Position numbers and translations under genes: made by a program
Part shown: in pieces, positions 16,936 through 29,264 of the stretch
How positions within the stretch are numbered: position 1 is the first letter of the stretch
Layout: each line of letters begins with the position of its first letter
Notes under the pieces: generated by a model
Databases searched by the model: none
Told to the model about the DNA's origin: nothing
Seen by the model: only the letters and a program-made list of their open reading frames with translations
Origin: Candidatus Yanofskybacteria bacterium RIFCSPHIGHO2_01_FULL_43_32
Lineage (GTDB): Bacteria; Patescibacteriota; Minisyncoccia; 2-02-FULL-40-12; GWA2-44-9
Reading direction: 5' to 3'
Length of the DNA: 34,065 nt
Assembly (NCBI GenBank): GCA_001794125.1
Contig: MGJF01000005.1
Coordinates: 1-34,065, forward strand

Positions 16936-17155
16936 ACCCCGTCCCCATTTGAGGCTATTTGGTTTCGTCAGGTAACACAATACTAAAATTAACTGATAAT
17001 TTGCTTATTTAATAAATTTTAGCCGGAAAATCCCCGCCAGCTGGCGGGGAGGAACGGTTGCTGAAATTTATTAAGCAAATTGAGAGCTAATTTTAGTATT
17101 TGTCTGGCGAAGATCCAAAGGACGTAACCAATAGGCCAGCAAATGGGGGCGGGGT
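16936..17155. repeat. ~220-nt imperfect inverted repeat / rod-like hairpin between convergent genes
   Basis: ACCCCGTCCCCATTTG (16936-16951) vs CAAATGGGGGCGGGGT (17140-17155); AATACTAAAATTA (16979-16991) vs TAATTTTAGTATT (17088-17100); apical CCCCGCC-AGCT-GGCGGGG. Confidence 0.85.
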
Positions 17156-25591: not shown

Positions 25592-25638
25592 TAATCAACA
25601 GCTCATCCGCCGGCCGGCGGATGAGCTGTTGATTATTA
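25589..25638. terminator. 50-bp perfect palindrome between convergent tyrS and the acidic ORF
   Basis: TAATAATCAACAGCTCATCCGCCGG/CCGGCGGATGAGCTGTTGATTATTA, 25-bp arms, no spacer. Confidence 0.8.
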
Positions 25639-25640
25639 TA

Positions 25641-25889
25641 CTACCAAGTTGATACCTCCTCTTCTTCTTCATCTCCCTCTCCCTCTTCATCCTCTTCCTC
25701 ATCACCATCATCTTCCTCATCGTCCAAATCCTCCTCCTCATTATCTTCTTCTTTGTCATCTGCTTCATCTGCCCTTAAAACCGACTCCTCCATAGAGGCG
25801 AACTCGCTATTTAACATAATAGCCCGGTCATGTTTTATTTGTATGTTTAGTCTCCGGAAGAGGGCTACTAAGCGATACAAACGAGACAT
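25641..25889 (-). CDS. Small protein with extreme Asp/Glu-rich C-terminal tail
   Basis: 82 aa, 22 bp after the ruvC stop in the same direction; tail ADEADDKEEDNEEEDLDDEEDDGDEEEDEEGEGDEEEEEVSTW. Confidence 0.6.
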   Translation of the reverse strand: MSRLYRLVALFRRLNIQIKHDRAIMLNSEFASMEESVLRADEADDKEEDNEEEDLDDEEDDGDEEEDEEGEGDEEEEEVSTW

Positions 25890-25911: not shown

Positions 25912-26382
25912 CTACGTAATTTTATTACTCACTCCGCAAATTGCAATAGCTAAAGCATCGGCGGCGTCATCGGGCCTGATTTCTTCTTTTATACCCAGTA
26001 TCAATCGAACCATTTTTTGAACCTGATTTTTATCGGCCCTGCCATATCCAGAAAGTGCCTGCTTTATCTGCATGGGGGTAAATTCAAAAATTTCTAAATT
26101 ATGATTGGCGAGAGTCAGCATTATAACTCCGCGCATTTCTCCGACCGGCATGACGGTTTTTTGGTTTTTAAAAAAGAAAAGCTTTTCCACAACCGCGACC
26201 TCAGGTTTGTATTTAGTGATCAGTTTTGAGAGTTCTTTTGCTGTCTTTTTGTAATCAAACAGCTTATCTTTGCCGGTGTTTTTGATTATTCCGAAATCCA
26301 AGGCCTCAAAGCGGTTGCCTTCATTTTTAATGATTCCGAAACCGATTTGTGTAGTGCCCGGGTCTATACCGAGAATGATCAT
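25912..26382 (-). CDS. ruvC: Crossover junction endodeoxyribonuclease RuvC
   Basis: MIILGIDPGTTQIGFGII, VVEKLFFFKNQKTVMPVGEMRGVIML, GRADKNQVQKMV, RPDDAADALAIAIC. Confidence 0.95.
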   Translation of the reverse strand: MIILGIDPGTTQIGFGIIKNEGNRFEALDFGIIKNTGKDKLFDYKKTAKELSKLITKYKPEVAVVEKLFFFKNQKTVMPVGEMRGVIMLTLANHNLEIFEFTPMQIKQALSGYGRADKNQVQKMVRLILGIKEEIRPDDAADALAIAICGVSNKIT

Positions 26383-27392
26383 AACAAGGTTTCTTTTGTG
26401 GGCAAGCCGAGATGTTTTAGTCCGCCCGTGGTTATAATTCTGCCCTTCGGGGTTCTTGAGAGAAAACCCATCTGCATCAGGTATGGCTCATAGACATCTT
26501 CAATCGTTCCTTCCTCTTCCGAGATGGCCGCCGCTATTGATTTTAATCCAACAGGTCCGCCGTCAAACTTTTCAGCAATAGCCAAGAGTATCTTCCTGTC
26601 GGTCTCTTCAAGGCCTTTATGGTCGATTTCCAGCAGCTTGAGACTCTCTGTGGCTAAAGTCTCGTTCACATAATCCTTGTCCTTCATTTGAGCGTAATCT
26701 CGGACCCTTTTTAACAGGCGGTTAGCCACGCGGGGAGTAAATCTGGATGAGGCGGCCACTATTTTTATCGCCGGTTTGTCTATTTTTATATCCAGCAAAT
26801 TGGCGGAACGGCCGATTATTTTTTCAATATCCTCGTCTTTATAGAAATCCAAACGGAAATTTGCTCCGAATCTTGACCGGAAAGGCGCCGAGAGCAGAGA
26901 TATTTTGGTAGTCGCGGCTATCAGGGTGAATCTCGGCAGGTCTATCTGAAGGGTTTTTGCCGAATTACCCTTGCCGATGACGATATCAAGCTTGAAGTTC
27001 TCCATTGCCGGATAGATGACCTCTTCCACCATTTTGTTAAGCCGATGGACCTCGTCTATAAACAAGACATCTCCGTCGTTAAGACCGGTCAAAATTGAAC
27101 CGACATCGCCAGCTTTTTCCAAAGCTGTACCCGAAGTTATCTTTATGCTTGCTCCCAGTTCTTTGGCGATAAGATAGGCAAGAGTGGTTTTTCCCAAGCC
27201 GGACGGGCCGTGCAGAAGAAGATGTTCGATAGGTTCTTTTCTTTTTTTTGCCGCCCCGATTACCACTTTAAGGTTCTCTTTTATCCTGTTTTGGCCGATA
27301 TACTCCTCGAAAGTTTTGGGCCTTAAAGCCTGATCAAGCAATTGGTCTTCAGGAACCGGTTTTGGGGTTATAGAATTGGGCTTGACATTCAT
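26379..27392 (-). CDS. ruvB: Holliday junction DNA helicase RuvB
   Basis: LRPKTFEEYIGQNRIKENLKVVI, LLHGPSGLGKTTLAYLIA, LFIDEVHRLNKMVEEVIYPAMEN. Start set at MNVKPNS (27392); the ORF-track N-terminal extension is not supported. Confidence 0.95.
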   Translation of the reverse strand: MNVKPNSITPKPVPEDQLLDQALRPKTFEEYIGQNRIKENLKVVIGAAKKRKEPIEHLLLHGPSGLGKTTLAYLIAKELGASIKITSGTALEKAGDVGSILTGLNDGDVLFIDEVHRLNKMVEEVIYPAMENFKLDIVIGKGNSAKTLQIDLPRFTLIAATTKISLLSAPFRSRFGANFRLDFYKDEDIEKIIGRSANLLDIKIDKPAIKIVAASSRFTPRVANRLLKRVRDYAQMKDKDYVNETLATESLKLLEIDHKGLEETDRKILLAIAEKFDGGPVGLKSIAAAISEEEGTIEDVYEPYLMQMGFLSRTPKGRIITTGGLKHLGLPTKETLL

Positions 27393-27410
27393 AGTGATTT
27401 GAACTAAAAT
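27382..27410 (+). promoter_or_regulatory. Sigma70-like promoter for the + strand RNA, overlapping the ruvB start codon
   Basis: TTGACA (27382-27387)-N17-TAAAAT (27405-27410). Confidence 0.6.
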
Positions 27411-27416
27411 ATGGGG

Positions 27417-27607
27417 ACTAATCCGCCAGCCGGCGGAAAGGACCTTTATAATCTGTAGGCAATTGGGTCGGAGTATTTTAATACACAGGTCCAATCGGGA
27501 TATTATCTAGTTCGGACAGCTTGGTTTCGACTGGGCTACTCCTCGGAATTATCCTGCCCCGCGTTTTGTAAATTCGGGCATTTGCCTACAGATTATAAGG
27601 GTCCTTT
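27417..27607 (+). ncRNA. Candidate novel structured RNA (four-way junction)
   Basis: 26-bp closing helix 27437-27462/27582-27607 enclosing three hairpins (27462-27495; 27496-27556; 27557-27578); G-U wobbles fit + strand; promoter upstream. Confidence 0.65.
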
Positions 27608-29264
27608 AACCTAAAATTCTCTCTATCTCTTCAATCGAGGTGATTCCGCTCAATAATTTCAAATAAGCATCCTGCAACATGGTCACCATGCCTTCTTTTT
27701 CGGCTAATTCTTTAACGTCGGAAATAGCGGGCGATTTTAAAATAAGCCTCTCCATTTCTTTGCTGATTGAGAATGCTTCGTAAACTCCGATCCTTCCTTT
27801 GTAGCCCAGTTCGTTGCATTCTTTACAGCCTTTTCCCGGAAAATAAATTTTTAACGAGGAGTCCAGTTTGGGCAGTTTAAAGCGGTCTTTTATCGGCGAC
27901 AAGTTTTTTTGTATTTTCTCCAAAGCTTCCGGCTCAATCTTATCCTGTCTTTTGCAATTAAGGCAAAGCTTTCTTATTAATCGTTGAGCCATGGCCATGT
28001 TAATGGCAGGAGCGATTATCTGGGGTTGGATGCCCAAGTCAACGAGCCGGGGGATGGTTCCGGCCGAATCGTTGGTGTGAATGGTAGACAAAACCAGATG
28101 TCCAGTAAGAGCTGCTTGGAGGGCAATGTCGGCCGTTTCCTCGTCTCGTATCTCTCCCACAAGAATTATATCCGGATCCTGTCTGACAATTGCCCTTAAA
28201 CCATTGGCGAAGCCGTAGCCCTTTTTAGTGTCAACCTGGGTCTGAGAGATGCCCTGTACGTGGTATTCAATCGGGTCTTCGATGGTAATTATTTTTGTGC
28301 CGGATGAATTTAAATACTGAACAAAAGAATATAAGCTGGTGGTCTTACCGGAACCGGTAGGGCCGGTAGTAAGAATGGCGCCGGTGGCCCGGTCCAACTG
28401 TTCCTTTACTATTTTCAAAAGATCCTCCCTCATTCCGAGATCTTCAAGTTTTGTCTTGATGGTTCGGGGGTCCAATAAACGCATAACGATAGCTTCTCCG
28501 AATTCGCTGGGGAGAACGGAAACCCTTACCTCAATATCAACGGTCTTTTGCCTGATGGTGAACCTGCCGTCTTGGGGAGAACTGTGAATATTGAGCTTGA
28601 GTTTAGATAATACTTTGATACGGTTCAGAATCTTCTCGTATGAAGATTTTTCCAGAACAGTAACGTCATTCAAAACCCCGTCGAATCTGTAACGGAGACG
28701 GGTTCTTTCAGCTTCCGGTTCAAAGTGAATATCGGAAGCGCCTATTTTAAGAGCTCCGGCAATTAATGTTTCAAGCATCCTGGTGGCCGAAATTTTAGTG
28801 ACTTTGTCTTTCAGGTCCCCGATGTTTTTTATTTCATCCTGTATTTTGTTAAGCTCTTCTTCTTTTATCTCTATCGCTCCGACCTCGAAAAGCTCCTGTG
28901 ACTGGGCGAATTTATACCGGCTTAAGATACCTTCAAGAACAGAAGGGGAAGTAACGACGGGGTTAATAGTAAACCCCTTTGTTTTGAGCGCTTCCATGGT
29001 TTTTTGAGTATTTGAATTTTCCGGGTTGGTGATGGCTACTGTCAGCTTGTTTCCCGATTTGTAGATTATGGCCAAACTTGAGGAGCGAGCGGTATCTTCG
29101 TCTATTGTAACCAAGGCCTCATTATCAATAGGAGCCGACTTTAAATCTGAAAATGGCAGATCAAATTTTTTAGCCAAAGCCACGGAATCTTCTTCGGTTC
29201 TTTTGAGCTGAATTTCAGACAGCTTCTTCTCCAATTCCTCCTCTTTTTTGTTTAGGGTTGGCAT
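27606..29264 (-). CDS. pilB: Type IV pilus assembly / type II secretion ATPase (PilB/GspE)
   Basis: ASDIHFEPEAERTRLRYRFDG, TGPTGSGKTTSLYSFVQYLN, ITIEDPIEYHVQGISQTQV, LVGEIRDEETADIALQAALTGHLVLSTIHTND, CKECNELGYKGRIGVYE. Confidence 0.95.
   Translation of the reverse strand: MPTLNKKEEELEKKLSEIQLKRTEEDSVALAKKFDLPFSDLKSAPIDNEALVTIDEDTARSSSLAIIYKSGNKLTVAITNPENSNTQKTMEALKTKGFTINPVVTSPSVLEGILSRYKFAQSQELFEVGAIEIKEEELNKIQDEIKNIGDLKDKVTKISATRMLETLIAGALKIGASDIHFEPEAERTRLRYRFDGVLNDVTVLEKSSYEKILNRIKVLSKLKLNIHSSPQDGRFTIRQKTVDIEVRVSVLPSEFGEAIVMRLLDPRTIKTKLEDLGMREDLLKIVKEQLDRATGAILTTGPTGSGKTTSLYSFVQYLNSSGTKIITIEDPIEYHVQGISQTQVDTKKGYGFANGLRAIVRQDPDIILVGEIRDEETADIALQAALTGHLVLSTIHTNDSAGTIPRLVDLGIQPQIIAPAINMAMAQRLIRKLCLNCKRQDKIEPEALEKIQKNLSPIKDRFKLPKLDSSLKIYFPGKGCKECNELGYKGRIGVYEAFSISKEMERLILKSPAISDVKELAEKEGMVTMLQDAYLKLLSGITSIEEIERILG

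Follow-up and report, generated by a model that had tools for sequence, protein, structure and literature searches.

We identified a structured RNA gene that almost certainly represents a new family of RNAs in the class Paceibacteria (Parcubacteria), and which is found far beyond the window, a stretch of 34,065 nucleotides from the genome of Candidatus Yanofskybacteria bacterium RIFCSPHIGHO2_01_FULL_43_32. As the best explanation of the evidence as a whole we tentatively propose a trans-acting, rod-shaped RNA, for which 6S-like binding to RNA polymerase would be the most likely mechanism.

By sequence inspection the RNA comprises 171 nt on the + strand between ruvB and a gene for a PilB/GspE-type ATPase, and a covariance model matches it with 176 bits (Table 1). 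Re-reading of the sequence reproduced most of what a preceding sequence-only reading had described: the letters and their coordinates, a 26-bp P1 helix with one non-Watson-Crick position (a U-G pair), P3 with its cap, P4, and a TTGACA-N17-TAAAAT promoter just upstream on the + strand (27382-27410). The P2 hairpin of that reading also exists, but A27462 had been counted in both P1 and P2, and the distal part of P2, given a loop of 2 nt, is impossible as drawn and is not conserved. The flanking genes, which it had named gspE and ruvB, were recovered with Pfam, ruvB on the 5' side and the ATPase on the 3' side. The -35 box falls within the initial codons of ruvB, whose start ATG is at 27392, the stop codon of the ATPase touches the end of P1, and transcription is expected to start at about 27417 on the + strand. 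A GC-rich palindrome, CCGCCNGCCGGCGG, is present at 27423-27436, between the RNA promoter and P1, and again at 25607-25620 and 17034-17047, where chance would give 0.13 matches in the window; it has many copies in this and related genomes and is a REP-like dispersed repeat. Adjoining ruvC in the same window is an 82-codon open frame on the minus strand (25641-25889), which has a stretch of almost pure Asp/Glu in its C-terminal half.

Table 1. Positions of the RNA, its parts and its neighbors in the window.
Feature	Position	Strand	Evidence and remarks
-35 box TTGACA	27382..27387	+	sequence; within first ruvB codons on opposite strand
-10 box TAAAAT	27405..27410	+	sequence; 17-nt spacer after -35 box
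Structured RNA	27437..27607	+	covariance model match, covariation
P1 closing helix, 5' arm	27437..27462	+	alignment, covariation; inner part CUGUAGGCAA best conserved
P1 closing helix, 3' arm	27582..27607	+	alignment, covariation; U-rich end (terminator-like) in many relatives
P2 hairpin (27463-27469 with 27488-27494)	27463..27494	+	covariation; optional arm
P3, 5' strand	27496..27502	+	covariation
P3, 3' strand	27550..27556	+	covariation
Conserved internal loop, 5' side	27503..27513	+	alignment
Conserved internal loop, 3' side (UCGGAAU)	27543..27549	+	alignment
P3b apical helix	27514..27542	+	covariation; three consecutive G-U wobbles, UUCG loop
P4 hairpin (27558-27561 with 27575-27578)	27558..27578	+	covariation
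ruvB, divergent neighbor	26379..27392	-	Pfam RuvB_N/RuvB_C; synteny, kept class-wide
pilB/gspE-type ATPase, convergent neighbor	27606..29264	-	Pfam T2SSE; synteny, kept class-wide

Folding of both strands, which had been suggested as a check, gave -82.6 kcal/mol for the + strand (RNAfold, z -5.8, none of 200 shuffles as stable) and a similar z for the minus strand, because P1 is palindromic; therefore folding energy alone does not give the strand. The strand is instead given by the non-Watson-Crick cells of the alignments. Those that had been read in the window as G-U on the + strand and A-C on the minus strand follow the same pattern in homologs, where G-U outnumbers A-C by 194:29 in the family and by 392:58 in the class, with a G-U majority in all 50 class sequences, and therefore the RNA is on the + strand. 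The model scores 170 bits on the + strand versus 54 bits on the minus strand. These counts and scores rule out a minus-strand leader of ruvB, and a cis-acting leader or riboswitch was rejected since both neighbors are encoded on the opposite strand class-wide. A sigma70-like promoter close to consensus (TTGACA, 17 nt and a TATAAT-like box, at least 9 of 12 positions) precedes the RNA in 83% of 132 loci, compared with 27% of shuffled flanks. At the level of sequence, the strand counts and promoter statistics support transcription well, and we infer that it proceeds from the RNA's own sigma70-type promoter on the + strand. Together with covariation and absence from Rfam 15, they support the original suggestion of a novel, structured and independently transcribed + strand RNA.

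The modelled fold holds. When 29 homologs were aligned with MAFFT without structure information, 37 of 57 pairs were found to change on both sides, and 92.7% of the pair cells were standard. In the same alignment there were 168 double-change cells versus 54 expected from shuffles, none of 500 shuffles reached any of the covariation measures, and pairing fell to 49% when the partner was slid by one column. In an alignment of 50 sequences from across the class, both-side changes occur at 53 of 57 pairs and 92.4% of the cells pair; this second alignment, unlike the 29-sequence one, had been fitted to the model and so leans towards it. Alignment A4 was rebuilt without three rows of A3, which were antisense copies of true matches.

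Alignment and covariation define the conserved core as a rod made of P1, P3, the internal loop and P3b. P1 is 24-26 bp long, with an inner part (CUGUAGGCAA/UUGCCUACAG) that is favored in sequence yet able to covary and with A-rich and U-rich outer ends, while P3 and P3b together span about 20 bp. A G-U pair near the base of P3 is nearly invariant in the family and class alignments (the second P3 pair is G-U in 29 of 29 sequences), and P3b carries consecutive wobbles and a GGY/RCU tip. P4 is common in the class; P2 is absent in L103, L121, L124 and L125. The compact four-way junction proposed at the outset fits the local family and a large part of the class, but the RNA is not defined by it: several lineages lack P2, and in other classes neither P2 nor P4 is present. 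The RNA of genome G043 (L079, 3038-3168) is without P2 and the 5' portion of P3, either because the copy is degenerate or through an assembly fault. Since a perfect four-way junction adjoins ruvB, with ruvC nearby, the RNA could be imagined as a Holliday-junction mimic that titrates or recruits RuvABC. We consider this barely credible and rejected it: lineages that lost P2 (L121, L124 and L125) still have the RNA adjacent to ruvB, and the forms of other classes are rods without a four-way junction.

In order to determine how widely the RNA is distributed, we combined a DNA search of 58 relatives with scans by successive models. The DNA search returned homologs in nearly all of the 28 family genomes and partial ones in the order. 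Model R1 located the RNA in 41 of 45 genomes of the order. The assemblies of the other four also lack ruvB, and thus probably do not include this region. Model R2 was run with strict filters on 384 genomes from across the class and found the RNA in 228, with rare exceptions at a single place per genome. Twenty-six ruvB-bearing genomes that were first scored negative were re-examined, and most of them do carry the RNA: model R3 places it immediately next to ruvB in 19, L268 and L276 also plainly have it, and L279 has a closed rod at the same place. In four of the 26 (L262, L271, L272 and L275) the RNA is not beside ruvB and has either moved or been lost. A scan of named groups located it in Yanofskybacteria, Harrisonbacteria, Portnoybacteria, Jorgensenbacteria, Wolfebacteria, Colwellbacteria and Niyogibacteria, and an exact-motif scan of viral contigs gave no match. 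The 762-kb genome to which the window belongs has a single copy, which together with the fixed locus rules out a mobile element with inverted repeats (MITE).

In other classes of the phylum R3 yields weak but repeated matches, in 11 of about 350 genomes. Among these, the loci L182-187, together with others picked up with the motif GGCACGACAAGCATGG, encode rods of about 120 nt without P2 and P4. In this short form an unpaired bulge of about 10 nt on the 5' side, ACGACAAG(C)A, is invariant, as is UUUCUUG on the opposite strand, and in nine sequences 31 of 40 pairs change on both sides. Three features recur in both the short form and the Paceibacteria form: the sequence proximal to P1, the basal G-U of P3 and the GGY/RCU tip. 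Judging by these shared features, the short rods are most probably distant homologs of the Paceibacteria RNA.

Within Paceibacteria the RNA lies between divergent ruvB and convergent pilB in 120 of 157 loci, and one of the two neighbors is seen in 25 more; in this set some genomes are counted twice and some loci are cut by contig ends. In other classes it adjoins ruvB and yebC, or vanW and clpP, or follows 5S rRNA. Retention of the RNA while its neighbors change argues for action in trans, which we regard as very probable, rather than for a function bound up with pilB, ruvB or Holliday junctions. A cis-acting element, that is, a bidirectional terminator or an antisense regulator of the pilB-ruvB region, would account for the prevailing position and for the A-rich and U-rich outer ends of P1. 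It is improbable, however, because a terminator has no need of P2, P3, P4, an internal loop or invariant wobbles, and the RNA of other classes stands beside vanW/clpP or after rRNA.

We compared the RNA with known families. At the gathering level of Rfam 15 the window matches only four tRNAs, with no match for this RNA, and at E <= 10 the spacer gives only one chance snoRNA match and no 6S; no description of the RNA was found in the open-licence literature searched. The family is new relative to both sources, as expected from the sequence-only reading, which had recognised no known family. A scan of the complete relative G012 with all Rfam families showed rRNA, tRNAs, RNase P class A and tmRNA; neither SRP RNA nor 6S RNA was found. 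One segment of the RNA, GGTTTCGAC, bears a superficial resemblance to tmRNA, and a tmRNA fragment was ruled out because tmRNA is encoded elsewhere: it is over the cut-off in 11 of 11 genomes, including that of the window. The new RNA resembles tmRNA (RF00023) and RNase P RNA (RF00010) as a conserved, single-copy housekeeping RNA, but both are encoded separately from it.

Bacterial SRP RNA (4.5S, RF00169) is likewise small, rod-like and encoded in a single copy, and it too has a conserved internal loop close to its tip. The conserved tip of the new RNA, UUGGYUYCGRCUGG, is however not the SRP domain IV motif (AGCA / CAGG loop, GNRA tip). A pattern search for that motif was negative over the whole complete relative with up to 3 substitutions, R3 has no match to E. 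coli ffs, and RF00169 was not found in the window's own genome, nor over the cut-off in 10 relatives. The SRP54 GTPase domain of Ffh and FtsY is absent from 112 genomes of the class, save for P-loop cross-hits of 18-25 bits, and from the 11 other-class genomes with R3 matches (controls 14 of 14 positive). This extends to these genomes the published observation by Nelson and Stegen that ffh and 4.5S were lost in Parcubacteria (PMC4508563). Given the missing SRP54 domains, the missing SRP RNA and this published loss, we conclude that the RNA is not SRP RNA; a diverged SRP RNA was ruled out on the lack of the domain IV motif, of Ffh/FtsY and of an R3 match to ffs. The same observations leave room for a ribonucleoprotein of translation or protein targeting in cells without SRP, in which the RNA would be a scaffold for the ribosome or a membrane-insertion factor. 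Its size and rod shape resemble SRP RNA and one short-form copy follows 5S rRNA, yet a common absence of SRP does not show replacement, and with the negative domain IV and ffs searches we consider this reading unlikely.

The 6S model was above its cut-off in none of 28 relatives; this model is insensitive, passing only 4 of 14 control genomes, and so the absence of 6S is weak evidence. R3 gives only noise against E. coli ssrS, which together with the Rfam scan up to E = 10 led us to reject 6S by descent. More generally, descent from a known family, either 6S or 4.5S, followed by strong divergence would fit genomes from which both are missing, but it is very improbable as there is no similarity in either direction.

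The likeness to 6S RNA (ssrS, RF00013), which binds sigma70 RNA polymerase and templates pRNA, is one of build. In the published description (PMC8414754) 6S is a rod of two arms, with a bulge or side hairpins at its mid-point. Both RNAs are rods closed by a long terminal helix, of similar size (160-200 nt in 6S, 171 nt here), with two long arms, which here are P1 and P3/P3b; both have an apical stem with an internal loop, and both are independent genes with strong synteny. P4 corresponds to the 3' side hairpin, and the 5' bulge of the short form is a further point of likeness. The two also differ: the new RNA has no sequence or model similarity to 6S, it has a wobble-rich tip and a P2 arm, and its Paceibacteria junction is almost without unpaired nucleotides where 6S has a large central bulge or bubble that resembles an open promoter, a feature with a one-sided counterpart only in the short form. 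We know of no 6S counterpart for the best conserved parts, namely the wobble-rich tip, the internal loop and the P3 G-U.

In the mechanism that we propose, a small, usually single-copy gene has a strong sigma70-type promoter of its own, which would drive + strand transcription of a structured RNA that the long P1 helix closes end to end. The RNA would act in trans as a stable, protein-bound rod in which P1 is stacked on P3 and P3b and whose mid-point carries side arms or a bulge. It might then bind the RNA polymerase holoenzyme, the rod with its mid-point discontinuity taking the place of a promoter, and could thereby tune transcription in cells without a recognisable 6S RNA. This 6S-like conjecture is based on size, on the two-armed rod with mid-point bulge or side hairpins and on the lack of a recognised 6S; the same rod beside other genes (vanW/clpP, ruvB/yebC) is not tied to pilB or ruvB. 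The absence of model similarity in either direction and of an open bubble in the Paceibacteria form count against polymerase binding, which from comparison of structures appears possible but short of probable. Another trans-acting ribonucleoprotein or regulatory RNA, for instance a decoy or scaffold for a lineage-specific RNA-binding protein, would agree with a deeply conserved fold that includes a conserved internal loop and tip, and with a Paceibacteria form that has no conserved single-stranded, antisense-like region; nothing speaks specifically in its favor, and we hold it to be rather unlikely.

Class-wide, normally single-copy structured RNAs are rare, the examples being rRNA, tRNA, RNase P, tmRNA, SRP and 6S, and the new RNA may be a core RNA of these cells. 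We are inclined to see in it an undescribed RNA, nearly universal in Paceibacteria and of phylum-wide ancestry, with a fold unlike known housekeeping RNAs and a core task in transcription control or in SRP-independent targeting or translation. Patescibacteria are a very large and poorly understood share of bacterial diversity, without SRP and recognisable 6S RNA, and the RNA offers a concrete handle on how such reduced cells manage without core RNAs. The covariance model is ready for an Rfam entry, genome annotation and checks against RNA-seq.

Several features were seen among the loci of other classes. In nine short-form loci (L182-L187, L285, L291 and L292) the bulge ACGACAAG(C)A and UUUCUUG have the potential for an alternative CAAG/CUUG pairing against the inner end of P1, which as far as the sequences indicate may be a conformational switch. 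Genome G691 carries two tandem, diverged short-form copies (L285, minus strand, at about 1286 and about 1501), and the copy in L286 (1479-1623) directly follows the 23S-5S rRNA genes. In L177 and L181 the other-class form adjoins a gene for a bacterial eRF1-like protein (baeRF family 10).
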